A DNA stretch of 64,000 nt from Branchiostoma floridae (taxonomy: Eukaryota > Chordata > Leptocardii > Amphioxiformes > Branchiostomatidae): contig NC_049991.1 in assembly GCF_000003815.2 (NCBI RefSeq), forward strand, positions 3,397,667 to 3,461,666. Reading direction: 5' to 3'. A program made the translations under genes and the position numbers. Below the pieces are notes generated by a model that did not search any database, was not told the origin of the DNA, and worked only from the letters and a program-made list of their open reading frames with translations. Shown one piece after another: positions 10,200-60,134 of this stretch (the first letter of the stretch is position 1; every line of letters begins with the position of its first letter).

Positions 10200-10500
10200 C
10201 AAAGGCTTTCCTTTCCAGATGTAAACAGTGACGCAATACGATATCCTCGCGCGTTGCATCATGGTTCTTTCTGACGTCATACTCTCGCGTAGCCCGAGAT
10301 TTGGGTGAGTTCTCGCGAGACTTGTGACGTCATAGTCAAGATGGCGGGAAAATCGAGCATGTAGACGTCAAGTTGTGGGTTTTCCTCGTTCTAGACTTCT
10401 AAACGTTAACGTGATTGTCGTAGACCACTTTTAGATAATTCTTAAGGTAGCGCGTCGTCTTAAGAGTCTCCTTGCTTTGTGTCAAGTGTCTAAGTCGTCG
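10200..10500. promoter_or_regulatory. Bidirectional promoter between the NERD gene and POLD2
   Basis: A CpG-rich stretch lies between two head-to-head genes. It contains CRE-type TGACGTCAT at 10272-10280 and TGACGTCA at 10325-10332, the palindrome TCTCGCGAGA at 10311-10320, and a YY1-type AAGATGGCGG at 10338-10347. These are established elements of TATA-less housekeeping promoters. The exact start sites cannot be read from sequence. Confidence 0.72.
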
Positions 10501-10506
10501 GTAAAG

Positions 10507-13500
10507 ATGTTTTCGAAGGACCCAAACGAAGAAGGCACTCTCTTGCAAGAGCCGAGCTCTGGAGAGTTTGCACAGTATGAAAGGGCCCAGTGTTCGTACG
10601 AAAACCTTTCCCAGCGTTTTATGTTGAAGCAGCGGAACTTTGGCAGGCAGTATGCACACATCTATGCCGTCAGACTGTGGGAGATGAAGGATAGATTGAA
10701 GAAGGCAGCAAAGAGAAAATGGGGTAGGTGTACCGTAGATCACGACTTATAATTTGTAATAGATAAGTAGTAAAGGTGCACGGGTCAGCCTTTTTACCGG
10801 AAAACAGAGGAAAACACAGTTAAACACCGGAAAACACATGAACGAGTGTATAATCTACTGAAATACATGTTTTGATGAGTTCGCTATGTTTTGCTACAGA
10901 ATAATCTACATATGGTCTAGCTCCAAAGGAACGGTATATTACATACACTGTTCCAAAGCGAGCCATACAAGAGATCCAACTTGAGTTCGCTGTTGCCTTT
11001 TTTCTGGACCGGCGAGTCGGACTCTTCTTCTCCCTACCTTAAAAAGGCACTTGTGAGTTGTGACAGTTCAATATTTCGGCGTTATGACCAAAGATCTTGG
11101 ACTGTGCCGCAAAATAAGAAAAATGCCCTTGGTGAAAGGGGGCGGAAGAGGTTATGGGCATTTTTCTTCCATATTAACAGTTTTTATACCACCATTTGGC
11201 AGGTTAATCCCTTTTCAAACAAACACTATAAGAAATATATGTTTATCTGGTTGTTTCAACTTCCTAGCGATCCATCAGAATGCTGGAAAGTGGCTGTGTA
11301 CGCCAAGGGGGTTTCCTCAAGCAGGCTCTGGATTGCCCACAAATCAGGCGGGTGCATATGCATGTCTATTAGTGTACGCATCCCCGATTTGGATTGGAGA
11401 CAGTACAGTACTACACAATTTAGGACAACAGTAGAAGCAGTGAATTTGAATANNNNNNNNNNNNNNNNNNNNNNNNNNNNNNNNNNNNNNNNNNNNNNNN
11501 NNNNNNNNNNNNNNNNNNNNNNNNNNNNNNNNNNNNNNNNNNNNNNNNNNNNCTTTGTTTTTCTCCGCTTATGTGGATTATCTTGGGGCTTCTGGACTTG
11601 TTTTTCGTCCGCCAACGCAGGTAAGTGCGTTCGGAAGGTAGGGAGTTGAAGAATCCGGCCCGCCGGGCCAGAATAAAGGCCCAGTGAACACAAGTTGGAT
11701 CTCTTGTATGGCTCGCTTTGGAACGGTGTATGTAATATACCGTTCCTTTGGAGCTACATATGGTCCTGGAATGAAGAAATCGTCAGAAAATGCATGAGAC
11801 GACGGACCGGACCGCCGCCACCCGGCGGCCATGTTTGTTTTCATTGCAGAATACATGTTGCGGGGTCTGATACTTTCACAACAAGACAGTCAGCTGATAC
11901 CTACCGAACTTCAGTGCAAAATCTGTTATATATTGGCATAGATATGATATATATGAATCTACTCGGATTGTGATAAGAATCTGTTTTCTGTATTTCTTAA
12001 TAAAGCTTGCTTCTTCTAGCCGTCAACGTTACATAATTTTCCACAATCAGCACGTCCAGTCCGCCGGGTGGCGGCGGCGGTCCGGCCCGTAGTCTCGCGC
12101 ATTTTCTGACGATTTCTTCATTCCAGGACCATATGTAGATTATTCTGTGGCAAAACATAGCGACCTGTCATGTTTACTCATCAAAACATACTGTATTTCA
12201 GTAGATTATACACTCCTTCATGTGTTTTCCGGTGTTTAACTGTGTTTTCCTCTGTTTTCCGGTAAAAAGGCTGACCTAAGGTGCACTTGTCAATGTAAAT
12301 TGTGGGGAGGGGGCTGGACTACTGTAAGTGCATTTAAGTTCGCGGAGATTTAATTTCGTATTCGGCCCGTTCGAAATAGTTCGATTTACATGAAGGAAGC
12401 CTGTGTGATACAACTTACTTAGAACCTGTGTGATACGGAAAGTTATCACACGCAAGTTAACACCCGTATTGAACGTTTTCGCGTCACAGGTATGACATAA
12501 AGCCAGGTATCAAGGTAGAAATTACAGTTAACAATATTATATTACAGTATACATTATATATAACGAGTTAGTGAGCACACCTTGAAAATGGTAATTAAAG
12601 GTACCTGGTAAACTGATTGAGATTTGCCCCCCTCCCCCTCTTCCCAACAGGTGTTGATGCGAAGAAACTGTCTGAGATGGAGACAGGAGAGACCTGTGTG
12701 GTGATCGGTACTCTCTTCAAACACATGGAGCTCAAACCCAGCATCCTGAAGGAAATCAGTGAGGAGGTCAGGTCAACTCTGCAGCTAAGAGTTGTTCTGT
12801 AAAGGTGGTATCCCACTGCACTTGGGGAACCAATCGAAAGATAACGAATTTCAGAGATAAAGAACAAATTTTTTAACGTTGTTTGTATTTTGATGTCTTC
12901 TAAGTCATACTTTTATGATTACGCAATATCTAAATTATAAAAAAAATAGCAAAAATAACACAACAGTGCCGCATTGAACGAACCCCGCAGTGCCGCACCG
13001 GTGCCCCAAGTGCAGTGAGATACCACCTCTACTGTGTCACGTAACGAAGAAGCAAGTTCACAGATTACTAGACATGCATAGTGAGATACATGGTGGGTGA
13101 TATGTCAAAGTTGAAGACCCCTGAGACATAAACAAAACATGTCTGGACATAGTATGAAGCATGCTGTAGACAAGAACTGTTTGCAAGTTTGGGTCATTGA
13201 CTTTGACATATTATCTATGATGCATTTAGATTTGCATGCACAATGAAAGGGGCAGATGCCCAGTTGACAAATTTTGACAGCATAAATGATAGTTCTGAAT
13301 TTTAGTATGACTATGAGTGTGCATGGAGAAAATTTGACCAGTGCTATGGGAGTGTTCCTACATTTATAGAGTATAAATCTGGAATCAAACTGTAATCAGT
13401 ATGATTTATGTCATATCAATGAATGCTATCAGCCTTATTGTTGTCTCATTGACAACAACTCTTAACTGCAATCTGATTCACTAAAATGCTGGGATAACAA

Positions 13501-25886: not shown

Positions 25887-28800
25887 TCACACATTCTGGG
25901 CCGTCCCACTTTTCCTAGCGGGGAGTTTTTCCGTGTTGGTTTTGGGAAGGCCGTACAAAAAGATGGCGGCTATGACGAGACTGGCGCCCAAGACGAACAT
26001 CCATCCGACGACGAGGCCCATGAACATGATAGAAGCGACGGTAGACAACACGATAGCCGCAGCTGCCGCGAAACCTTTCATGATGTTGTCGGTGTACTTC
26101 ACTACAATGGATGTGTAGATGCCACCACCGCTGCCTAGCACTGTTGGGAACAGTAAAATATAGTCATTAGATCCAAAGAACTGCTGTGTGACCTGTAGTG
26201 GTGTTACTGTAAAAGGGGAAATGTTTGCGAGGATTTAATTTCACAGTAAGGGTCGGAGAAAACTGAGTTTTTGTGCTGGTTTTAAGTTCATGGATGAAAC
26301 AAGGGGGGCAGTGTGTTGACGACAGCACTTTTAGGATAAGAGCAAGACATGAGATAGTTGCTTCACAACTGCTTGAAGCTCGGTATGGTCAATCACTGTA
26401 CAGTCATGTAGTACTTCATAACAACAAATTTGTAGAGACCAGCACCACTGCCTTGCATGGTTCGGATAGACAACAGGGCTCGAAATTCATTTTTGGGATT
26501 AGGTGCACTGGTGTACCTAGCTTAAAAAATTGGGTGCACCAAAACATTTTTTGGTGCACCACTTACATGTAAATCTAAGTAGAATGTAAAAAAACCCACA
26601 AAACTTAGTTACTAGCTACCAAATTCTTAAACAAGTAACATGACAGACTTTTTTATTATCTTTCTAACACTTAAATGTCAAGAATATGATGTATACTAGT
26701 ATACATGATATCTTTCCATACATAAACCTAAGAAAATATTTGGGTGCACCCTGTGCACCCACTGAAAAAAATTGGGTGCACAGTTCCAATTTTGGGTGCA
26801 CCTGGGTGCACATGCACCCAGTATTTCGAGCCCTGGACAACAAAATGAGATATACAGCACAACTGCTTGAAGCTCTCTGTGGCCTTTTACTGTACTTCAC
26901 TACAACAGACATGTAGATGTCACTACCGCTGTCTTGCACTTATACTTACATACGACCAGCCAGACGAGGGGTGTGTAGCCGTATAAGAAGCCGTTCTCCC
27001 TGACATTTTGCCAGTCGTGCATGACCACGCCCAGGAAGGCACTGAGCATGCCCCAGGTGTACATCTGCACGTTCCGCACCCACAGGGAGGTGTCCGAACC
27101 CTTCAGCAGTTTCTCAAAGTAAACCCCTAAAAACAGAGTTAAAAACGCAAAGGTTCGAGTTAGGTTTTTGTTAGGTGTTATTATACATTTTGTGATTGAA
27201 CATTCTGTAGTGCCAAAGTAATACGTTAGTCATTGTCGTGAATTAAAAGTGGAGGAGTAACCATGAAAACTGAGAAAAAACAAGAATATTTCAGTTCAAA
27301 TTTTCAAGATGTACATCATTAATATATTTTTATACAGGGCTAAGGCCACACCAATTTAATTTCTTGGTTCACGGATTTTTTCATAAAAAATAAGGAGCGA
27401 GAGGGCGAAATAAAAATAAAAATTGTAAAATGGTTGGGGTAAAGGTAACGGCTAATCCAAAACATAAAGAAAAAAAGTTTTCAGCTTGAAAAAAGTACAA
27501 AAACACTATTACTGTACAGTAATAACACCTGTTCGTTGAAAATTACAAAAGTAGCATCAGTTTTTATGTTTGCTACACCAGAAAGTTGGTGAATGGTTTC
27601 ATTAATGGTGAAAATTTGCTGAGTGGTAATTTTCATTTTTATTTTTTTCCTCAAAAAATAGGAGCGAGCAAATCCGTGAACCAAGAAATTAAATTGGTGT
27701 CGCCTAAGGCATGGCAGCTCATTCACTGTGACAGTCATAAAACGAAGCAATAAATTCACAGAATTCAGAATCCTTATTGTACATTTTAATTATTTCATTC
27801 ATGTATGAAATTAAAAAATAAAACACAACAGCAGAGAAGTTTAGAATCTTCAAGGAAATCTGGTACTCAATTTCAACAAACCTGCAAATCCTGAGCAGAA
27901 GACGGCAATGGTCAGAGCAGTCAGGCCCACAACATAGCTTCCCTCAGTTCCGGAGGTGTGGCTCACTGCCTCTCCTCCTATGCCCTGAAGAAACAATTGT
28001 GTTATTATTCTTATACATAAGGCCAATGTCTTACTCAGAGTCTACGATTTTTAAGAGGATTAAGAAGGGTACAATCTCATGTAACACAAAATCCATGCAT
28101 GAATTGTTATTTGGGCCAGTTCACATGAGGAAAAATCCCTTGACGTACGTCAAAGTCGTCTGTCTTTGACAAACAACCCGTTTTTTGCTTCATGCTTCAT
28201 GTGACCAGACCACGCGCAGGGCTCGAAGTTAACTATGTCCCGATGTCCCGAGACCACTAAAATTTAGGCCGGGACAACTGAAAAATCTTTTTGGGACACT
28301 TTTGGGACAATAGGAAAACGAATCAACATCAGAATGTCCGATCTCCCCGCGGCAGGCTTTTAGCTAGCAATGCGTACAGCCGTACAATGTACGGCCTTCG
28401 CTAAAAAAATCGCAAAATGTACGCCCTGTTTTTTGGATATACGCCTTTGGTACGCCCTTATTTTCCCCCGGAAACTTCGCTCGAAGTTCAAATTCGCCGA
28501 TTCCGGCGCACCGAGCCGCCATTTTGGGTGATTCTACCTCAAGTCTCGCGCAATCTCGCACTCACTCACATCTCGCGAATCGCGAGAGTCACACCCCATT
28601 GGCCATTTCGGCGTGACGTAGCGCGCCCAGGCGCCATTATTGGTGGAATATCTGATATCCCCGCTGTTTTCGCGGGAAAAATCACGCAGGGAAGCGTAAA
28701 AACTTTGATTTGTTTACGAAAACTCGTCGAATGCCTGAAGTCATTGGTGATAAGTACATGTATAGGATTTTTTTTGGAGGTTTTTTTTGCTTGTTTGTCG

Positions 28801-31800
28801 GCGGAATGTGGGAAAAATAACAGCTAATGTGACGATGACATACTGGGGAGGGGGGCGGTGTCGGCACTGAATTCGTAGAAAATGTTGAACGGAGGTCGCG
28901 ATTTTTTCACGGTAACTTGAGATATTACTTAAGTTTGTTGCAGTCTTTATTTTTAAAATATTGATAAATGGATGAGAAAATTTCGCTTAATTTGCCCTTG
29001 GAACACATCTTTTCTGCTATATATTTTCAATCAATTAAATGTTTGTACACATTTTTCTGTACTGTGTAAAGTTACAACGGTGATGTTACAGGCTACAAGT
29101 AACTTTTCAGTGCATTTATTTTCAGCTATGTTCTTAACAGAGTAGATACACAAAAGAAATATAAGATGTACCTGGCAGTCCTGGCTACACTTTCTCCTCT
29201 GTTGGTTTGCAGATTTTCTTGTAGACTTCTTTAGCTTGCTGTTGTTATATATGTAACAGTCAAGTTTCACCTTTAGCTGTAATGTTAATTTACTCTCCCT
29301 GATTGTATGTATTAACTCATGAAACATTATATTGTAAGGAATCAGTGTTATATTACTTGAAAATTACCTCATGTATTCTTTAAGCCATACCCACCTCAAA
29401 TCAAGAACACATACCTCCCATTCTCAGGACAAAAGTAGTTTTGCAGCAAAGACAAAAATTTGGCTATATTCTACTTCAAAATGCAGGAAATAGCATTTCA
29501 GAGGCTTTAAATTTCAAAATTTTCCGGGGGAAGATACCCCCGGACCCCCCTACAATGCTCGCGCCTTCGGCGCTCATCGCGCGGCTCTGCCGCACAGTGC
29601 GGAAAGTACAACACATTACAGATATACACCCTAAAAAAATTCCTAGCTAAAAGCCTGCCCCGCGGTTGTCAGGCGTGCGTACTCTGACTTACAGTTGTTG
29701 CAATACATAATTTCTGAAAATAGGGTTGGGACAGTCCATCCTCACTTCGGGACAGTTGAAATTTATTTTTGGGACAATGCGGGACAGTAGGGAAAAAAGT
29801 TAAGTTTGAGGCCTGCACGCGGCATTGGCGACAGATATTTCATAACAGTTTTTTTACAGATATTTTTACAATGTGGGGCTCAGCGAGAGTCCCGGGTCCG
29901 TGTGTGTGAATAGAAAGCTGACGGACGACTTTGGCATATGTCATAATGTTGTACAACCAGAAATTTTCCTCGTCTGAACCTTCCCTTAATAAAAATTGGG
30001 ACTGCATTTTTCTCACTATAAGGCCACCTAATGGCGGGAAGTACATGTAAAACCAGTAATTACTACCCTAAGGATGGTAGCAAAAAGACTACATTGGCAA
30101 TCTCATGCATGGCTGTGTGCAAAGAACTTTGTTAACTATATGATTTTTGTGAACTTTTGTTAACAGTGAGAGGGAAAATTGTTAGCATACCTGGACTAAA
30201 ATGACGCCACCTGTTAGAACAAAAACTGCGATCCACTGCATACTGCTGAGACTTCGGCCCAGCATCATCACAGACAACAGGGCCGTACATGGGATCTTCA
30301 TCTGGTATGTCACCTGGGAAAATGGTTTGAGGAAAGAACAAAGCTTAGTACACCTGATCAAGTTCATGTACATGACATTGCACAATTATGGTAGTATTAG
30401 CCATAGGTACCATTTGTGTGCATCCAACACCAGTATGCTGCATGATTTTGTCTGTGTGTGGTGCTTTAGGCATTTGCATCATGTGCTCTAGATCTGTAAT
30501 AGAAACAACAGTTACTGTCTCGTGTTTTGTAAATTTTTTCTTAATTGGGAAATTTTGCTCATCTACATGTACAACAGTAGGTCCAGGTTTTGCTAGGGAG
30601 GGCAGAAGAATTTGTATTTTTAACATTTGGCAAAATCTGTGACCTTTGACCGTGTTTTACCCTGTAATTGGCCACTTAACTCTTTCTCATTGGCTGGGCT
30701 ATTTCATTAGGACAAGGAGTCAAATTTTGTAGCTGATGCCAATCTCCTGACTGTTAGTGTTACAAGTTCTTTAAAATGCTGGTGTTAATGACAACCTACT
30801 ATTTCACGTTGCACCCAAAACAAATTCAACTTTGCAGGGTTTGAAATGTAGGTACATGTACTGTAAATGTGTTTTGAAGTGATACATGGCTTACATTTTG
30901 TAACTATATGTTCCAATAGAAAATTCATTTGGTGGTCACTCCCCTTCAGAAATCCAAGACCCAGTGTTACACTGTAAAAGCCCATACCTGGTATGTTGCT
31001 GCGTCCAGGTTACTGAGTCCGATAAACGTCATGTTGTTCTGGATGGCGTATACGATGGACGGCACGCTCATCTTCAACATTTCCATGGGCTTCCCGACGA
31101 TATTCCCTTTTAGTTCCTGTGTAACTTTTCGTATACTGCCCTTATGCTCTTTCAGGAGGATGCACAGTGTGAAAAACATCTTGGCGCACTCGGTGACGAA
31201 AACCGTGGTGGTGGAGTAGTACCGTACGCCTTCGACAGTCCTCGTGTAGCGCATCAGTACCGTGTACGATGCCGCCATGACAGTCAGCACTGCCAGGCAG
31301 TACAGCTTGAATACCACCGACGCCCCCTCTGAAACAGGACAAGAACTGCAGTTAGAATAGCACACATGGCTCTAGATCTTGATCTATCTAAGTGTTTATG
31401 TTCCAGCATATACAAAGTACAGTCAAACCTACTACAATGTATATTGGTGGCCACCTCTTATGTACATGAGGCCCACCTGGCCAATGTGATCACTTTTCTG
31501 TGGTCCCTTAGATTATTTTACCTTTTGACACAAGCATTAGAAAAATACAAGAATCTTGTTTATAAATTACTCTAGTGACCACATGTCCGCATACTAGTCT
31601 GGTTCCCTGTGTGGCTTTGAGTACATTAGACTGAATACAACTTATAACTTGAAATACAATTATTTTTTCTGCATACCTTCATTGGTTTAAGTATCATTCA
31701 AGATCATCAACTTCCAATAAACCATACCTGAACCACTCAGATGAAAAGACAGATCTTCAGAAGTATAAAGTGAAAACTCACGGTCAAATAGTTCAATTGT

Positions 31801-41025: not shown

Positions 41026-41031
41026 TATTCG

Positions 41032-44000
41032 TCAGTTCTCGGAACACTCCTTTTGCCCCGACCACAGTGTGTAGTACTGTCCCCGCTGTAAGGGCCTGAG
41101 TGAGCTGTCCTCTGTTGTATACTCTGCTGTGGTGCCGTACCCTATCACGTACACGGCACCGGGCTTCTTCTACGTATATGAGGAAATATAATTAACATAG
41201 CATACATGTTATTTACATGAAAGTTCATCTGTGTTGGTAAAAGACATTATGAAAAAAAAAACTTCGCGCAATGGACCCGTCTACTGTAGCTACGTGATGT
41301 TGGAAACACGTGACTGACAGGGTCGAAGGTGCCAGATAGCCTGTGTCGCCCCCCGTCTCTGTTCAGTGTTGCTGCAGTCACGTGTTTCCGATGTCACGTC
41401 CACGAACTGCAGTAGACGGGTCCATTCCGTAGTCAAAGCTGGGTAAAAATTTGGATAAATCCCAACTATCTTTACTATTGGCAAAGTTTGATTTTTTAAA
41501 CACGTATATGTAATGACATACATGCAATGGCATGGCGTGTTTCCAACCGAATTCGATATTAACTTCAACAATTGAATTAAGAAAGCACGGATAGATTAAA
41601 AAAAAATACATTCCATAAAACTCACCTCTCGGGTTTTCAAGTAGGCTGAAATCTCATCAAACTGAAAGAAAACAAAACGACATACAAATACGTATAAACG
41701 TGTGATAGGTGTTAAAGTTTATTCTGAAAAAAATTGCAATAAACGTTTCTTTAGTTCAAAGTTTGGCCTCGACTTGGCTCATTAATTTCAATAAGGCCAT
41801 GTTGATTTGATTATATGGATGACATCCTCTGGGAACTCCAAAATTGATGCGAGCGAGCGAATAAAAAAAAAGTTTGGCCAAAAAAAAAGTTGCCCTCAGT
41901 ATGAAATCAAAGTGGCCAGGAAGGTTAAACATAGGACTAAACACACATAGTATGGTATACCAACAGTTAGGTGTGGGGAACAGTACATCATACAGGTGCA
42001 AAACATTTTTTTTCTTGGACCAATCCGAAAAGAACAGACCTGAAAAAAATCAGAGGAACAGGTTTCGCCAATTACAAAATAGACACACTATGCCGGCAGG
42101 CATTTGGGGTCTTACCGGGGGCCAAGGAGACAACAGAAGTCAAGTAGAGTTTATTGTCAATTGTACCAAGTTTCTACAGTCAAAGGAACAGAGACAGTTA
42201 GCCTTTATTACATGGAGATAAGATTTTAAAATGCCATTGGGAGTCCAATAATCCACCAAACAGATTCCCTTGTAGCAAAATTGACAAATTACCATTATTT
42301 TGAGTATTGTCAATTCTCAAGTTTCCACAGACAATCAGGTCCAGGTTCAGGTCTGGATCTGGAAATGATCCTCTGGACCTGATCATGAACATATACCTGA
42401 ATTTTCTGTACTGGTACCTCTCCCAACCAACAATAGATTTTTTTTTTCTTTCTTTCCTTTCACATCTTATTCTTTGACTTTATTTTGGCATTCTATGGCT
42501 TAGTTATTTGTTTTCTGATCCTTTTTTTCAATCTATGGAATATTTGTGCTCATTTTACAGCTGCTTTACAGCTGCTTTGTGTGGTCAAAAACTTTTTTTT
42601 TTTTTGGAAACGGCCGAAAATTGGTGCGAGCGCGGATGTCATCCATATAATCAAATCAACATGGCCTAAGTACATTAGAAAGTCACAGTACTCAATACAA
42701 ACATATTTGTGTGTGCGCTATAAAAGCTGTCAAAATCTCCTCAAAACGATGATTCAAACAGTAAACGCGCTCTACTTTGTAAAGCTTAGAGTTGTCCTGT
42801 CTCTTGCTAAATCTTGAAACATTATCTCTTAACGACAGAAGAAGAAAACATCGACATGTCATTAAAAAATATCAGGACAAATACACCTCACCGACGCGTG
42901 CCATTTTGAGGACGGGGTCCGACCGTCCACCACCACAATCGGGGCCTCGAAAATTCTGTCGTACAACTTCGGCGTGAAGCCGGAATCTGCCGAGAAGCCG
43001 AGGATCAGTTCGTCCTTATAGTAAAGCAGAAATCCTGAAAGAGTACAAAAGGCGTCAGAATGTCTGTACTAAAACATTCTCAACAAAAGGATACTGAATC
43101 AGATTATTACTATGAAATTATCATTATTAATTACTTTTGCTAACTAATTGCGCTTACGTCGACAATTATGTTTTAGTCTAGACGTACGTATTGTATTGCA
43201 TTGCATTGCATTGTATTGTATTGTATTGCATTGTATTGTATTGTATTGTTAAGTCTTCCATACCGTAGCATGGTAAGTCGTGCTGACTCTCAACTGCCTG
43301 GAGTTTGAAATTCTTGACGACATCAAGATACATGGGGTCACCTTCGGGGTCACAAATCAGCCAATCAGCTATGTCATCCTAATGATTAACATGAAGGATG
43401 CAATGACGTCATCAATGCGAGGAATGCAGTAATTTTATAGTTGCAGATACTTCCAGGAAAGTATACACAAAAATCATTCCTCTTAGTAGCGTTCTTGCTG
43501 TTTGTATTTTTACAACACTCTGATTAAAAGCAAGGAAAATATATTACAGTGGAAGGCTTTTAGCACCAAGGACAGTGCTTAAATGAGCCCTAAACTCCAC
43601 AAGAGGGATTTGTTTTCCAATAGATACCGATCTTAGGAAATAAGACACACATTATACGATAAAGCATGCTACAGTGAACAGTGGACCACGGCTTAACGTC
43701 CCGTCCTATGGATTGCAACCCTTTCCGGTAGCGTGCGCGCCGGGTTTCTATCTAGTTCCAGAGGCAGAGCCGCTAAACAGTGGACCACATAAGCCACCCG
43801 CCAAACAAACTATTGAAATGATCATTCAAAGTTTCCTCGGTAATACGTATCTTCCAACACTTTTATCAAAATAAGTTTTAAATGGAAGGCATTCAGCACC
43901 AAGGACAGGGAGAATACAAGGTACTATTTCCAACGGTTTCAATAGGGGAGGGTTTGCTTGTACTAAAACTTACGGGTGGTATCTGATTCGCCATCTCGCT

Positions 44001-45798
44001 CAAACGATGGACCTTGAGCGGCTCTTGAACCTTGGGTCCGCAGAAGAGTTTGAGCTTCGGCTTGCCGGCCAGCAGGCGTCTCTGTGCGGCTCCTCCCAGT
44101 ACCAGGGGCAGCTCCCCCGCGTGGTCACTGTGGTTGTGCGTTATGAACATCGCATCAGGGAACTTCTCAGGGTCTGTGGTGAAGAACGTTGATTTTGAGA
44201 TGATTATGAGTTGCAAATCAATAACTAATGCTTCTGTCACAATTGGACAAAGGGGCCCCGCCGGGTAGTTTGCGGGCTGTGTTTTTAATGCATTTTCGGG
44301 CGTGACCCCTAGGTGTTACCCGCCGGACGTCCTATGGCTACCGGTCTATTTTCGGGCATGGCCGGGCCCCGGGATTTTCGTAACTGAAATTAAAATCAAC
44401 CCGGTACTCGGCAACAAATAGACGCCATGACCTTATCGGGAAAACAAATGCCGAGTGGTGCCGTTTGGTTGACAGCTAATGGGAGGCCAAACCCAGAAAA
44501 GTGGAAACCTCAGCTCGATCTAGCATAGAATCGCCTATCTATTGTTTTCTTTAGGTAAAGCCTATTTTCTAATTGACTGACAGTTGGCTAGGAAAAATTC
44601 TCTATGAGAAGAGAATGTTAAAAAAAAGTTTCAAGAAAACAAAAGTACATGTATGATGGGTTAGACACGTCTACGAGAATACAGTGTTTTAAAAAGATGA
44701 ATAACTAAATCATAGGCAAACAGCAACATCTCTTCATTTTCAATATTATATAGGAATACAAATGGTCAATCATCCTATTGAGAAAGTAGTGAAAATAATC
44801 CTTACTTATTGAGTGCAGAAGAGACTGTGTGACGCCCAGCCCCGCGTCCACCAGTAGTACAGGTGTGGAGTTGTGCAGGATCACCATGGAGGAGCTGGGT
44901 TCTCCCGTCATTACGGCTGTGGGGAGGACAACATTACATTACAAGAGCGACCTCTATCGGTATTGCTTATTACTGCAGCTCATAGCACTATCATGACTTT
45001 CCAGGACCCTTTGTCTTGTATCTAAATTCATATAGAGCTTGTTTGTTTGCTGAGGCGGCGGCAGCAAATTTTGAATGAGGACGAAATGATATTAATGCTG
45101 ACCGAATTTTAAGCATATGGAGTCATACATACTTCCCCAGAAAAGTTTTGAAAGCTTGACCTCTGAAACGCCTTTCCCTGAATTTTGTGGGGCACATTTT
45201 GCTTGTAGTATGAGCTACGTTTGATGACATTTCTACAAGTGAAGAAATATACAAGGCTTTAAGCTTGACTCTTTTTGACAAACATATCTTTAAGGGAAGG
45301 GATACCGTGTAGCTTACATTAAACAAGGGACTTACATGTATCCGAATCTATCTGAGCATTTCTAAGGGCACAACATGAGAAGGAAGCTGCACTAACCACA
45401 TGGGTACCTTGCTTTCAATACGGCATTTGTCCATCATAGTAACTTCTGAGTAACACATACTAGCTTTAATGTTTATACTATTTCAAAAATAAAACTGTAA
45501 TTGTTCAATTGAAAGATAAAGTACAGTTACCTGTCAAGCCCTTGCCGGTTCCAAGACAGAGTAGTTGGATGACGTCACAATCTTGAGACACCTCCCCGCA
45601 CGGTTTGACGTTTTCGTCTGACTCGGAAGTCTCTGGCTTAGTCTGTGGTAGAATGTTAGAATGTTTAAACTTGTTACTGTTATAATTGCTATTTTGTGGG
45701 CAAACGATTACTCTATCTTCGCAGCCAGACGCTGAACCGTGAGGATTTTCAATAGGTGGGGCTAAATCGCAAGAGTCAGGATCGGAGCGAGCTGCCAT
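41032..45798 (-). CDS. RNase Z-like metallo-beta-lactamase-fold protein, 7 exons
   Basis: Exons (minus strand): 45798-45531, 44916-44806, 44173-43974, 43378-43264, 43034-42892, 41661-41626, 41169-41032. Phases join into 1011 nt (336 aa plus stop). The order of motifs is that of RNase Z-type MBL hydrolases: LGTG (82-85), LLVDAG with Asp113, THNHSDHAGELP with His139, His141, Asp143 and His144, then VESQHDLPCYG with His226, LGFSADSG with Asp248, and SSKWHAS with His277. The usual final LTHFS-type histidine appears as VIGYG. Such proteins are metal-dependent hydrolases of RNA, DNA or small phosphoesters; the substrate here is unknown. Residues 1-70 are polar and unlike the fold. ATG 45798 is the first Met of the exon, but TGC-CGA just before it is in frame with an AG acceptor, so this exon may instead continue from the SIR2-like gene upstream. 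Confidence 0.78.
41270..41426. mobile_element. Foldback MITE in an MBL-gene intron
   Basis: AATGGACCCGTCTACTG at the left is perfectly inverted at the right, and GGAAACACGTGACTG is also shared by both arms. About 50-60 bp arms around a short loop. It lies 100 bp from the last exon. Confidence 0.75.
41794..42667. mobile_element. AGGCCATG-ended TIR element hosting a nested hAT copy
   Basis: AGGCCATGTTGATTTGATTA and its inverted copy (ending 42667) are perfect, followed by TATGGATGACATCC on the left and its inverse on the right. A TSD is not clear. Single ends of the same family occur at 46680-46716 and near 62345-62380. Confidence 0.75.
41968..42426. mobile_element. TAGGGCTGGG-family hAT copy 3, nested, degraded
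   Basis: CCAACAGT at 41960-41967 and CCAACAAT at 42427-42434 match at 7 of 8. Ends TAGGTGTGGGGAACAG and GTACTGGTACCTCTCCCAA align to copies at 19814 and 36959, with extra internal sequence. Confidence 0.65.
43186..43250. repeat. (ATTGT/ATTGC)n microsatellite
   Basis: About 12 pentamer units mixing ATTGT and ATTGC, in an intron of the MBL-fold gene. Confidence 0.9.
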
Positions 45799-45989
45799 TC
45801 GGCACTAACTCAGGTGACCCCAATACGACTGTCACAAGGGCCTGGAGTAGTTGCTATTCGACGCAAAATACTGGTACATAAAATCTATATAGACAAAATA
45901 AAAGCGAGATGATAACCATTCTAAATCTATTTCAACTCAACGTTATATAAAGCTATTTGAAGCATATGGCTTTCGTGGTACTGTTTCTC

Positions 45990-46125
45990 TGCTTAGCACT
46001 CAGCACTAATAAGGAAGAGTATGGCAGCTAAACACACTTCACTACCAGCGGACTAGCCCCCTGCTGCTTGCACAAATGTGTGGCCCAAGGGCTACAGAAA
46101 TGGATAAGGGCACCAACCTTCAGCA
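45990..46125 (+). repeat. SINE-like body fragment
   Basis: CTGCTTAGCACTCAGCAC and the following ~120 bp match the body of the SINE-like copy at 5235-5400. It sits in the short interval between the SIR2-like and MBL modules. Confidence 0.55.
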
Positions 46126-46182
46126 TCTGTTACAGATGTACGGACAACTTTCTAACACTATCATTCACATACGACAAACTAC

Positions 46183-49100
46183 CTTCTCAGTGGGTGAATC
46201 CAGCTGTTTGGCGCCCGGGTTGAGAAGTTGGGCCAGAGACGGAAGGTCCAGGTCAACATTCAGGAGGGACAGGCTTCCTCTCTCCTCTATACCGCGCTGC
46301 TTCGCTGGCACAACTACAAAATGTCTTGTCTGCGAGAAAAAAATACACCAAGAATATCAGCTGTTTTCACGGGAAGTTATTAGATTTATTTTCATCCGTT
46401 TCCAACAATAACAAAATACAGTAAGTCGTACAAAGGTGCTGCGAAATAAATGAATATATGATGTAGGTTGCAAAAATTGTCTATGGTAAATGGATACTAT
46501 ATTCCATAATGCTAAAGCCAATTCTAAAGTAAAAGTATTGTTCTTTATATCAAACTCTGTGGATTTAGTCATTCGTTTTATCTTCCTGACCGCTAAATAG
46601 ATTTCATAATGAAGCAAATTTTGCCAAACATTTCTATTTTACATGTTACATGCTTGCATCAGTTTTGGGGTTCCCAGAGGATGTCATCCATATAATCAAA
46701 TTAACATAGCCTAGTTGACATTTTACAGCATACTAGTAGGTGTAAATGATTGTTTTTATGTGGCTAAATACGAAGATTTTAGTGTTTGAATTATAAGTTA
46801 TGATTTGTGTTTCTAATGACAATGTCGACTGTTGTCCACACATATCATGTGATTGATGTAAAAGTGTGCCCTGCCTTGGAATTCTCAGCAAACCGCTGGA
46901 GGACGCTGCTGTACAGTGGCAGGTCAGGGTCGCAGCCCAGAAACAGGACGGACCGCTCATTGAACAGCTTTTCCAAGAATCTGGATTCCTCCCCGTCAGA
47001 CGTACACAGTTCTTCCACCCTCTTTCTGGTGCCCAACTTTAGAAGGAAAACAGATTGCGAAAAAAACATTTTAACGTCTTTGCGAATTTATGTAAATCCA
47101 TATTACGTCATGATGACGCCATCAATAATAGTGGTACCACTCCAATTAAAAATCGAATTTCTAGGATAGAACTTAGGCACAAATCAATGGATTTTGTCTC
47201 ATAAACGTGTAGAATACAAGCTCATACAAAAGAAAAGAAGCATAGAATTCATAAATATACAAAATGGACAAAGAATGCTTTAGTATGTCGTTTGAATAAG
47301 GTATGTACAAGAATATTAGTCAGAGTACTACGTTTTCTATGATATGACTTTCCATTTTAAAATTCTTTTTAGAAATCTTTCATCAATATTTCTCTACATA
47401 CCGTTGCCCTTGCGTGAAGACTCGAATCCCCGAAACACTTGACGATGACGTCATGATGTAAAGTCGGCCATGTTGAAGCCAGAAGGTTCAACTATGGATA
47501 GAAGCAAAAACGACTCAGATATTTATCTGAAAGGGCCGTGCAAGCGCACACCATAGGGTATAAAAGCTTTTAAAGATAAGGTTTGCTCGTGGAGTGACCC
47601 CGTCCAGCCAGATAAAGCGTTTTACTGTTGGTACTAACCATTGTTTCGTATTTTTCTGTTTGTTTGTTTGTTTGTTTGTTTGTTTGTTTGTTTGTCTGTC
47701 TTGGTGTGTACACAAGTTTGTGTTCGCTGCGCCTACTAAGGTTGGTCCTGGAGACGGAAAATGGTGCAACTGGAGACTTGTAGGATGGGAACGCTGGTTT
47801 GGCCTGGGTCCAAAGTTGTTGCCGTAGGCTTGTTCCTGTTGTTTGTCATCTTTTCAGTCAAACAAGTATGAAATGCTAGCTTGTGGTAATTTGAGGAATG
47901 AATTCACTCTACTTGCAACTGGATACTTGTAGGATGGGAAAACTGGTTTGGCCTGGGTCCAAAATTGTTGCCCCAGGCTTGTTCTTATGTTTGGCATCTT
48001 TTAAGTCGAACAAGTATGAAATGCTAGGTTGTGGTAATTTGAGGAATGAATTCACTCTACTTAACAAGCACATATATCAAATGCTAGTATACCTGGTCAA
48101 GCCTGAGAGATTCCCCCACAATGCCCTGCGGTGCCCAGACCAGCCGCTCCACCAGACAGTCCATGTTGGTGGTGAGGATGATGGGAAACCTTCCCAGGGT
48201 TCTCAGCGCGGCGTGAGACAGGGACGGCCGGTCCCCAAGTCGCTGTAAGTAGTCTTCTTCTAGTTTCTTCAACTTTTCCGTGCTTATTCCGGATTCATCC
48301 TATATGAATATGGATAGTTCAAACAAGACCACTGTATAAGCTAAAGGAGCCATCTACACCAAATCTTTACAACCATATCTGAATAGAGACGGCGGGCGTA
48401 ATAGAATTCCTACAACCTATGATCCACTGCTCACTGAGTCACGTGTTCTATCTGCATAACGTGTCGTCACGGCAGCAGTGGATTGACAAAGACTGGTGCT
48501 GTTCAGTCGAACATTTGGGTAAGTCCAATGTTTGTGTTGGATACTACAGTTAAACTAGTTCAAGAACACCACTGTGTGTCTGGGGCAAAGGATACAAAAA
48601 TGAACGCCTTACTGCAGTACCAATGTCCCCCGTAAGGAAGCAAATAATCAAACGCCGGATCAACGATACCTATTGCTATCTACGTGTCAAATATCATCGT
48701 AATACACCTAGCGGTTCTAGATATTTCGCCAGACACGCACACAGTAGAAACGATATCTCAGTTTTTCGTGGAGGTAAAAAGTGCTTTTCTTTGTTAAAGA
48801 TAACTTTTGAAAGTTTGCCGTGACCACTTTATTTACCACCTGCCTATTAGATCTATTATCAAGTACGGATACATACATGGGATTGAATTATTGAAAAAAA
48901 TGCTTGCTACGCATGTTACAATTTGGAGTTCTTTTATAGAATTCCAATAGTAGCTATGCAAGTGCACATATATTTCTAAACGCAAGTCGGCGTTGCTGTA
49001 CCGCCCCATGAAAGCGTGTCAAATTTGAACCCGGAAGTAACAAAATACAGTCTTGAACTTTGGGACGTGATCTATCGTGCTATGAAGATAGCTACCGAGG

Positions 49101-49377
49101 TAAATCATGCAGTACAAAATGTATTGACTTTTGTCAAAGATTTGACAATGCTGTAAGTTTTATTCCACCTACTAAGTCTATTTTTTTATCGTCTTACAAG
49201 AAAATCTCAAATTTTACATACCTGAATTCTGGTCCACCAGTCACCGAGTGTTGCTGGCTGTGGAAGAGCCGAAATCTTTTCTCCAAGGAACAGAACCAGT
49301 TTCTCCTCCTTAAGGGCCTCTCTTAAGACGCGTAGGGCTGCCAGGAGACCCTGATTTACCTGCCCAGGTGAGCTCAT
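46183..49377 (-). CDS. SIR2-like (probably degenerate) protein, 5 exons, at least 254 aa
   Basis: Exons (minus strand): 49377-49222, 48299-48093, 47491-47402, 47036-46875, 46329-46183, all phase 0 (156, 207, 90, 162 and 147 nt). The frame has the SIR2-type order: LVLFLGEKIS (28-36) where active enzymes have Gly-Ala-Gly-x-Ser, FPIILTTNMD (90-99) with the conserved Asn97 and Asp99, DVIVKCFGD (135-143) where the catalytic His-Gly should be, then SVLFLGCDPDLPLY and HFVVVPA. SIR2-like domains bind or hydrolyse NAD; the FAM118 proteins of animals are relatives and are the closest guess. The His-to-Phe change at 141 argues against ordinary deacetylase or NADase chemistry. The intron after exon 4 appears to begin with GC rather than GT. 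If exon 5 is terminal, the frame runs on to TGA at 46165-46167; otherwise it may splice into the MBL exon at 45798. Confidence 0.7.
47653..47697. repeat. (TTTG)n microsatellite
   Basis: Eleven uninterrupted TTTG/GTTT units in an intron of the SIR2-like gene. Confidence 0.92.
47766..48063. repeat. ~150-bp tandem duplication
   Basis: CAACTGGAGACTTGTAGGAT (47768) to GAATTCACTCTACTT repeats at about 47918 to 48062 with roughly 10% differences. It abuts exon 2 of the SIR2-like gene. Confidence 0.85.
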
Positions 49378-57300: not shown

Positions 57301-60134
57301 TCTTCTAGACGCATGTTACTGTATGTGGTCCAGCGTAATAAATCTACGCTTTAACTCACCATGTTTAGATAAAGATATATCACAAATTGCATCAGAGGGA
57401 ACTTATTTTGTAATGAAAAATAATGCATATTCATTCAAGGGTCAAAAAGTTTTACAAAACCTGTTTAATGTGCCAATAATTCATGTGACATAAATTATGA
57501 TAATGAGGTAAAGTTCCAATATCCCCTTTTGCTGCATTTCCTACTGAAGTCGCTAGGTGTCGCTCTCAGCAGTTCAGTCATAAAATACGCGGCAATGCAC
57601 AGCTTTTCTTAAAAGATTTCTTGTTACACCAGAGCCGGGCTGAAGTGAGGAAAGTCGTCCAAAGTGCAATTCCAAGGTCACGACATGCATGACAAATACC
57701 CTGCAGTTATGCTACACGACTCCACAAATTCTCTCTCATGAATGAAGATTATGTTTTGATTGGCATTTTAATGTTTTCTTTTCATACGCAATGTATTTGA
57801 TCTGATTGAGTATTCGGACACTATTTTTCGTCAAATATGTTGCGCTTTTCTAGTACATAAGCTCTAACCTTGTTTTCTTCTTTACACCTAAGAAAATGAA
57901 CGCATGCACCACACCTGGCAGTCCTACGATGAAACTACTTGAGGTTCTGGGAAGACGTGACCCAAGATATCCCACTACCCGTCTTCTAGACCATCTCAGA
58001 CAGATGGGAAGGAACGATGCCGTCGATGCCTTCAACCATGCAAAAGAAACGAAAAGAAAGAAAGGTATCTTAAGTCTTTATCTGTTGTGTCACTATCGGA
58101 CAACGCTAAAGTTTCCCTTTTCCTCCATGGTAGTCCTTTATATTCATCTGTTGTTTACTCCAATATTCTGTTAACAACCCAAAACTTCATCACTGTAACT
58201 AAGCGTTTTTAAAACACAGTTGCCCTGGCATTTTTTGTAATTTGTCCAATTATTTCATCATTGGCTGGAAAACTGGACTTGCGTTTATCTTTTCTTGTCA
58301 TACTATGCACAATGCATTATTTTCTGTCTGACGTGATTTTCATTTGCTTTTCATTCGTACTTGATTTCTCTTCGTAAAAAAATGTATGCTTTTTTATGTA
58401 AGGGGTAGCGTCAAAATAAGTCTTGTACTTGAGTGCGCCACCTCTTTGTCATATTGTATTATTGTTTAAATGTTTGTATAAAAAAAGTTGTGGTGTACAG
58501 GCTTTGACGTCATTGTGTTGATATTGTCTTCAGCTTGCAATCATATTATGTTGTCTTTTAGTTACAGATTGGCAGAGGACCCGCTCACAAACAGTTGATT
58601 TGGTACGTTGGTTTATTGATGCTTTAAATAATTTCATACAGATATCATGATTAATGTCTTACTGACTGAAAGAAATTTTTCTAACATCAGACAAAAATGA
58701 ACAGAGACATTGGGTAACCGGTCGTTTCGTTAGATTGTCAGTTCGCTACAGGCGTTTCGCCACAAGATAGAAGTTGTTTCGCTACTTAGCACTAGTTCCA
58801 TCTATAGGGTACACAAGGTACTTGACAAACCTGAAATGTTGTTTCACTGAGAATATGCACTTGATCTTCATTCGGACCTAGATACTGTTATTAGCCTAAA
58901 TCAAGCCCATTTGTGCCATCTGGCAAGTGTTCGCTCAGTATTGTTTGTTACATAACTTTTTAAAGAGATAGTAGAGAGCCATATATTCATTGAATTATCA
59001 TTGGCATTGGGTATTGAGGAATTGAATTTCATACATTTATCTCAGGGTGTGCAGCTGCGAGTGCAAACTCTGAAGCTCTCCAAGCAGGAGTCTGGGTCGG
59101 ACCCTGGTGTTCCAGACACCGCCGAAAGGCTGCACTCGGACGCGGAGGAATGTCTCAGGAAAGTTCAGCGGAGCAACACGATGCCCACAACAACACAGGT
59201 CCAAGAACAGACAAGCGTGCCGGTACAGTCAGTGTCAAGCACGGTAGCTACACAGCCGCAAGAACGACAGCCAACAAGTGTTCCGGTACAACCCATGCCG
59301 AACACGGTACCTACACCAGCACAACAACGACAACCAACAAGCGTTCCGTTACAGCCAGTGTCAAACACGGTACCTACACCACCGCAACAACGACAACCAA
59401 CAAGCGTTCCGTTACAGCCAGTGTCAAACACGGTACCTACACCAGCACAAGAACGACAGCCAACAAGTGTTCCGGTACAGCCAGCGTCCAATCCGGTACC
59501 TACACCACCGCAACAACGACAACCAACAAGCGTTCCGTTACAGCCAGTGTCAAACACGGTACCTACACCACCACAAGAAGGAAAGCCAACAAGTGTTCCG
59601 GTACAACCCATGCCGAACACGGTACCTACACCACCACAAGAACGACAGCCAACAAGTGTTCCGGTACAGCCAGTTTCGGACCATACCATAGAACCGTCCT
59701 ATCCTCAACTGGTCAGTCAGCCTCAAGAGCAAGTGAGTGAATCAATTACAGTCGACATTCACGCAACCGTGACCACACCAAATGACCTCCAGTTCCCACC
59801 GTCCACCGACCTCCTTGCCAACCCTGCGTATCCAGAAGTCGAGGCTGCCGTCGCAAACTCCCAAAGAACATGCCAAGATCCACAACCCATAGCCACCCAC
59901 GAAAACCCGGCAGCAACAACACAAAACGTCAAAGCTCGCCAGAACTGCGAGCTTGAAAACAATCCTAGCTACCCGGCCGTTAGCGATGCAGTGATTGGCC
60001 CGATAGAGTCTGTTCAGCTGCCGTTGGAGACGGGGGATTTGAATAGCAATGGTGCTACGGGATTGGTGGGTCAGAAGGCCACATTAACCAATCAGGAGTA
60101 CCCATCTGTGGAACGTGCAGTTCAGTCAAACTAA
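54341..60134 (+). CDS. Death-domain protein with Pro/Gln/Thr repeats and NPxY-like tail, 7 exons, 666 aa
   Basis: Exons: 54341-54532, 55092-55178, 55829-56083, 56591-56755, 57893-58064, 58562-58602, 59046-60134; phases join into 2001 nt with TAA. ATG 54341 follows an acceptor at 54331, so a non-coding 5' exon is likely. Residues ~187-283 form a death domain: DDWLALAERL (212 on), SPTMKLLEVLGRRDPRYPTT, then LLDHLRQMGRNDAVDAF. Death domains mediate homotypic assembly in apoptosis and innate immune signalling. Residues 1-178 (ITYEAGDMFFQVGQSKPGTL, GDVLMRTCIVITKDGA) are well-formed but not recognised. Residues 359-513 are eight 21-residue repeats starting TSVP. The tail has EPSYPQL (520), NPAYPEV (563), NPSYPAV (610) and NQEYPSV (653), the last three followed by an acidic/AV motif. 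No signal peptide or membrane segment is seen, so it is probably a cytoplasmic adaptor. The 41-nt exon 58562-58602 is the least certain. Confidence 0.72.
54860..55035. repeat. Fragment related to the 20607 element
   Basis: TTTTTGGGCCCTAGTGGCTT, GGTACTGCAGCGGAAC and CACGCTATGGTCGTGATGTT resemble 20761-20870. It sits in intron 1 of the death-domain gene. Confidence 0.55.
56215..56370 (+). repeat. SINE-like repeat copy
   Basis: CAGTGCCACATACAAGGTAC, CCGAAGTCAGGGACCCA and GAAAGGTCGTGTTAAGTGCC match, in order, the copy at 60877-61035, and the 3' half matches 19370-19475. In intron 3 of the death-domain gene. Confidence 0.65.
56957..57602. mobile_element. Possible short-TIR element
   Basis: GCATTGCCGCG at the left and CGCGGCAATGC at the right are perfect 11-bp inverted ends. 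A GCTCGCTCGCGGCTAATCGC mini-array (57187-57245) lies inside. No TSD was found. Confidence 0.4.
59211..59676 (+). repeat. Coding 63-bp minisatellite (eight 21-aa repeats)
   Basis: The codons for TSVP recur every 63 bp at 59211, 59274, 59337, 59400, 59463, 59526, 59589 and 59652. Variation is mostly in the P/L, V/M and Q/E positions. Alternative frames across the array are open because of the repeat, not because they are genes. Confidence 0.93.

Follow-up and report, generated by a model that had tools for sequence, protein, structure and literature searches.

A predicted gene joining SIR2-like and MBL domains in the lancelet Branchiostoma floridae

Gene structure

The stretch of Branchiostoma floridae DNA analysed here (64,000 nt of contig NC_049991.1, positions 3,397,667 to 3,461,666 of the forward strand) is referred to as the window, and all positions are given in its coordinates. 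On the minus strand, between 49377 and 41032, it probably holds a single 12-exon gene whose predicted product of 538 amino acids fuses a SIR2-like domain to an MBL domain, a reading to which we assign, from the sequence, a probability of about 72% (Table 1). Spliced in silico, the 12 exons remain in frame throughout and contain no internal stop. In the predicted protein, a SIR2_2-type domain (residues ~25-245) is connected by an acidic linker, about 30 residues long, to an MBL domain (~276-538). The five SIR2-like exons (49377-46183) each begin and end in phase 0, and the seven exons that follow (45642-41032) encode the linker and the MBL domain. The splice sites of all 12 exons lie at or above the 85.6th percentile of the 3,589 AG or 4,004 GT sites on the same strand, as scored with matrices of approximate values; donor scores, including that of the GC donor of exon 4, leave out the first two bases.

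Table 1. Exons of the predicted gene and the intron at the domain junction (window coordinates).
Feature	Position	Strand	Content
Exon 1	49222..49377	-	ATG at 49377; SIR2-like N-terminus, FLGEKIS vs FAM118B IGTGIS; donor at 99.8th percentile
Exon 2	48093..48299	-	SIR2-like; TTNMD motif
Exon 3	47402..47491	-	SIR2-like; KCFGD vs FAM118B HIHG
Exon 4	46875..47036	-	SIR2-like; FLGCDPD; apparent GC donor AAG/gcaggg opens intron 4 (46874-46875)
Exon 5	46183..46329	-	End of SIR2-like domain; phase-0 donor AAG/gtagtt, 95.9th percentile
Predicted junction intron, 540 nt	45643..46182	-	Contains repeat copy 46112-45984, AG 45804 and ATG 45798
Exon 6	45531..45642	-	Linker TKPETSESDENVKPCGEVSQDC and first MBL strand (VIQLLCLGTG); no Met
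Exon 7	44806..44916	-	MBL; VDAG
Exon 8	43974..44173	-	MBL; metal motif HNHSDH
Exon 9	43264..43378	-	MBL; conserved His in SQHDL
Exon 10	42892..43034	-	MBL; conserved Asp in SADSG; VVDG; KWHAS
Exon 11	41626..41661	-	MBL; 12 codons
Exon 12	41032..41169	-	MBL; VIGYG; TGA stop, with poly(A) signal AATAAA just after it at 41029

The junction between the two domains

A first-pass annotation of this DNA had proposed that the SIR2-like and MBL modules form one fused gene, joined through an AG acceptor at 45804. The sequence favours the fusion, and the junction is here replaced by the acceptor at 45642. As that annotation stated, exon 5 is SIR2-like and ends in phase 0, after which the intron opens with a donor (46182) that resembles the other donors of the gene in score. 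This donor pairs in phase 0 with the acceptor CCACAG/ACT at 45642, and the pair joins both domains in an open frame. The acceptor stands at the 94.3rd percentile of AGs, the remaining ten acceptors of the gene ranging from 85.6 to 99.8, and the resulting intron is within the size range of the other ten (229-1230 nt). It had also been claimed that exactly one AG keeps the MBL frame open; this proved incorrect, as seven phase-0 open AGs are present between 46160 and 45545 (45804, 45669, 45642, 45636, 45630, 45621 and 45591), among which 45642 scores far best. By our own estimate, a phase-0 open acceptor this good would occur by chance in about one-third of such seven-candidate gaps, so that more weight falls on codon composition and on the absence of a Met from exon 6 than on the splice scores.

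The 52 codons between ATG 45798 and 45643 have a codon log-odds of -16.5 bits, which is below each of 487 coding windows of the model (minimum -1.1), where the codon table derives from the 538 codons of the same gene model and the coding windows overlap. The signal is strongest next to the acceptor, the adjoining 26 codons (45720-45643) being lower than 513 of 513 coding windows, while the 26 codons at 45798-45721 are borderline, with 20 of 513 windows equally low. One-third (33%) of 390 open 52-codon frames in other introns score as high as this stretch or higher. The short exons 3 and 11 of the model are also slightly negative with the same table (-0.11 per codon), and the GC content of the gap is in places like that of exons, for example 0.56 at 45816-45760. 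Since the stretch 45798-45643 scores as intron-like, the coding part most likely begins at 45642. Exon 6 then lacks a Met yet carries the first MBL strand, so that an upstream coding exon ending in phase 0 is required; the nearest SIR2-like exon with such an end is exon 5.

A fused gene that uses acceptor 45804, and consequently has a linker of about 84 residues, is highly improbable. The acceptor is in phase 0 with an open frame, but it reaches only the 35.6th percentile of AGs, in agreement with the poor quality first ascribed to it, and the extra codons look non-coding, worst where they adjoin 45643. A start at ATG 45798 was likewise tested and rejected.

Two adjacent genes, a SIR2-like one ending at TGA 46165 and an MBL one with its start at ATG 45798 or in a small exon further upstream, are an unlikely alternative. 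The frame of ATG 45798 is open into the MBL domain and TATA-like strings occur at 45949, 45947, 45891 and 45889, but none of the 487 coding windows scores as low as the 52 codons that would follow this ATG, and the base at -3 is C. A stand-alone MBL gene would need a further 5' exon because exon 6 has no Met. Two candidates with a donor score above -1 were found in 46182-45690, both from ATG 46126: one of three codons running to a good donor (46126-46118; donor 46117, score 1.8), which speaks for two genes, and one of 27 codons running to a weak donor (-0.4). A separate MBL gene might also begin with an exon upstream of 46182 or at the Met of exon 7. The 366 bp between the read-through stop and ATG 45798, an interval first given as about 370 bp, would moreover have to accommodate a 3' UTR, a poly(A) site and a promoter without AATAAA or ATTAAA. 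The lack of minus-strand AATAAA between 46165 and 45798 had been pointed out before; it holds, and extends to 45643, but is weak evidence because 73% of 1,270 overlapping 522-nt windows on the same strand likewise lack this signal. The rare variant poly(A) signal AATAGA at 45931 could act as a weak signal for a separate SIR2-like gene.

Chimaeric transcripts can arise from tandem genes that have good splice sites. Two genes with occasional read-through splicing from 46183 to 45642 would yield the fusion as a minor product, an arrangement that we consider improbable and that overlaps with the preceding one, such that their odds are not additive. It too needs a separate MBL start, and 46182-45690 offers no convincing candidate.

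The gap itself had been described as mostly SINE-like. Judged by matches within the 64-kb window, just 129 nt (46112-45984), about one-third of the gap, have a counterpart elsewhere (5370-5239, 76% identity).

The SIR2-like domain

The Pfam family SIR2_2 (PF13289) matches residues 92-216 with 40.5 bits, above its gathering cut-off of 24.5. The nearest solved member is human FAM118B (9r3e, 9r0p), to which the phmmer match is weak (19.6 bits, E 0.0038, best stretch 135 residues); the FAM118 clade is characterized, in a passage of PMC12700824, by at least 41% identity to the human FAM118s. The same paper names H206 and N163 as the active-site His and Asn of FAM118B and states that changing either residue prevents NAD-processing by a FAM118A/B mixture (PMC12700824). 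In the lancelet domain the Asn is kept (Asn 97, in TTNMD) and the His is replaced by Phe 141 (KCFGD vs HIHG). TTNxD, FLGC and the HF..V end strand are common to both proteins. The lancelet domain differs in that GEK (FLGEKIS) replaces GTG (IGTGIS), in a weak 2-bit stretch of the alignment, that the active-site His is Phe, and that, in the gene model, an MBL domain is attached to it.

The MBL domain

Pfam matches to both Lactamase_B and Lactamase_B_2 were obtained for the C-terminal part, which appears from its sequence to be of the class II phosphodiesterase/RNase Z type. Residues 341-346 (HNHSDH) conform to the HxHxDH zinc motif, which is named for Apyc1-like phosphodiesterases in a part of PMC9117128. 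The domain was compared with relatives found by alignment-based pattern scans, in which an MBL relative was encoded by 19 of the 493 stretches matched in viral contigs and at least 39 relatives were found in prokaryote genomes (39 of 592 stretches among the matches listed). Both scans only sample the MBL family because they seek short patterns. Together with five annotated records these make up 63 loci (the prokaryote ones among the matches listed), many of which carry HxHxDH by construction of the search.

The lancelet domain keeps His 428, Asp 450 and His 479, positions at which 61, 62 and 60 of the 63 relatives, among the matches listed, have His, Asp and His, respectively. The last His ligand ('motif 5') is replaced by Gly 503 (VIGYG) where 60 of these 63 listed relatives have His. 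Val 469 is found where the His of HDC or HEC is present in 40 of the 63 relatives among the matches listed.

Two known enzyme groups resemble the domain in different ways. With Apyc1/YhfI-type class II cyclic-nucleotide phosphodiesterases it shares HxHxDH and the later conserved His and Asp; the PDB structure of Apyc1 aligns over residues 7-185, and 20 of 25 phage records align over 95-98% of the domain at about 24% identity. It departs from them in HDC, which is VDG, and in the last His, which is Gly, and its score of 37.7 bits is far below the NCBIfam equivalog cut-off of 400 (NF041851). RNase Z provides the best PDB match by E-value (1y44, 1.5e-07, residues 4-100), but the scores against the NCBIfam RNase Z equivalogs are 33.5, 31.9, 22.4 and 17.8 bits for cut-offs of 252, 292.95, 398 and 363, respectively. 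The PxKxRN-like loop is an RNase Z motif; the lancelet domain is without it when compared with L005, an unannotated frame that we take to be RNase Z-like.

Searches for related proteins and fusions

The limited prokaryote and virus searches revealed no SIR2-MBL fusion among the matches listed. When the SIR2 part was compared by tblastn with the 63 MBL loci among the matches listed, nothing was obtained at E ≤ 1. The MBL frames of these listed loci measure 207-508 aa from stop to stop. Of the longer ones, which include L003, L024, L040, L061 and L062, the frame scanned with Pfam, L003, proved to be a beta-CASP enzyme with no SIR2. Single-protein scans of viral contigs gave no relative, neither with the MBL query nor with a query of SIR2, linker and partial MBL. 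The SIR2 part had no match in plasmids (E 0.1) or phages (E 1) and none in NCBIfam; PADLOC returned one weak SIR2 match (E 0.027), and plasmids contained three weak MBL matches. Within the 64-kb window, tblastn for paralogues gave only chance-level matches (E ≥ 1.5) besides the gene's own exons. Among the open-licence PMC papers found by literature searches, none describes a SIR2-MBL fusion in its title or the opening of its abstract.

Possible function

Both domains look altered in the active site. Together with the open frame maintained over 12 exons, we infer from this that the protein has been retained for a role in binding or assembly, or for an altered reaction, and that the gene has not decayed. 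Tentatively, neither domain may be a standard enzyme, and the SIR2-MBL pair may sense or buffer a nucleotide signal. The SIR2-like part, in which GEK stands in place of GTG and Phe in place of the active-site His, would serve as a nucleotide-binding or assembly module. In the MBL part, HxHxDH is retained along with the conserved His and Asp, but the last His ligand is lost; this part could therefore be a phosphodiesterase that is weakened or works with one metal, or else it could bind nucleotides. The signal handled by the pair would be NAD-derived or a cyclic nucleotide.

The vertebrate SIR2_2 proteins FAM118A and FAM118B are presented in PMC12700824 as NAD processors related to the antiphage sirtuins of bacteria. 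Fusion of a SIR2_2 relative to an MBL domain of the phosphodiesterase type would suggest a physical link between NAD and cyclic-nucleotide signalling, and two fused domains that are both apparently catalytically altered would be unusual within one protein. A more speculative scenario, which we regard as doubtful, is that, in an animal lineage, an antiphage-like sirtuin of the FAM118 type was fused with a cyclic-nucleotide phosphodiesterase of the Apyc1 type and that a key residue was then lost in both active sites, leaving a protein of two domains that would sense nucleotides or act as a sink for their signal in innate immunity. If true, this sensor or sink would have been built from both sides of the bacterial/phage nucleotide-signal arms race.

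Repeats and neighbouring features

Several repeats are located in the introns of the predicted gene. Intron 10 contains, at 41794-42667, perfect 34-nt terminal inverted repeats spaced 806 nt apart, and a third copy of the arm with two mismatches is found in intron 4 (46679-46712); the element looks like a member of a small non-autonomous DNA transposon family. Intron 2 harbours a 148-nt direct tandem repeat in two copies with 91% matches (47765-48062).

Rfam and ARAGORN searches of the window returned nothing. The exons that neighbour the predicted gene have an animal-like character. Elsewhere in it, an open frame of 392 codons (58956-60131) without a Pfam match includes a 63-bp minisatellite of about seven copies (59211-59674), and a 44/92-bp minisatellite, whose 44-bp unit is repeated about 14 times, lies at 1309-1951. 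Exons of a nucleotide-sugar transporter (PF04142, two frames) are present on the minus strand at 25890-31371. On the plus strand, frames at 10435-12799 match PF18018, the OB domain of the DNA polymerase delta subunit, with the first of them falling just short of the cut-off, and an EF-hand frame (PF00036) is situated at the window edge (40-231).
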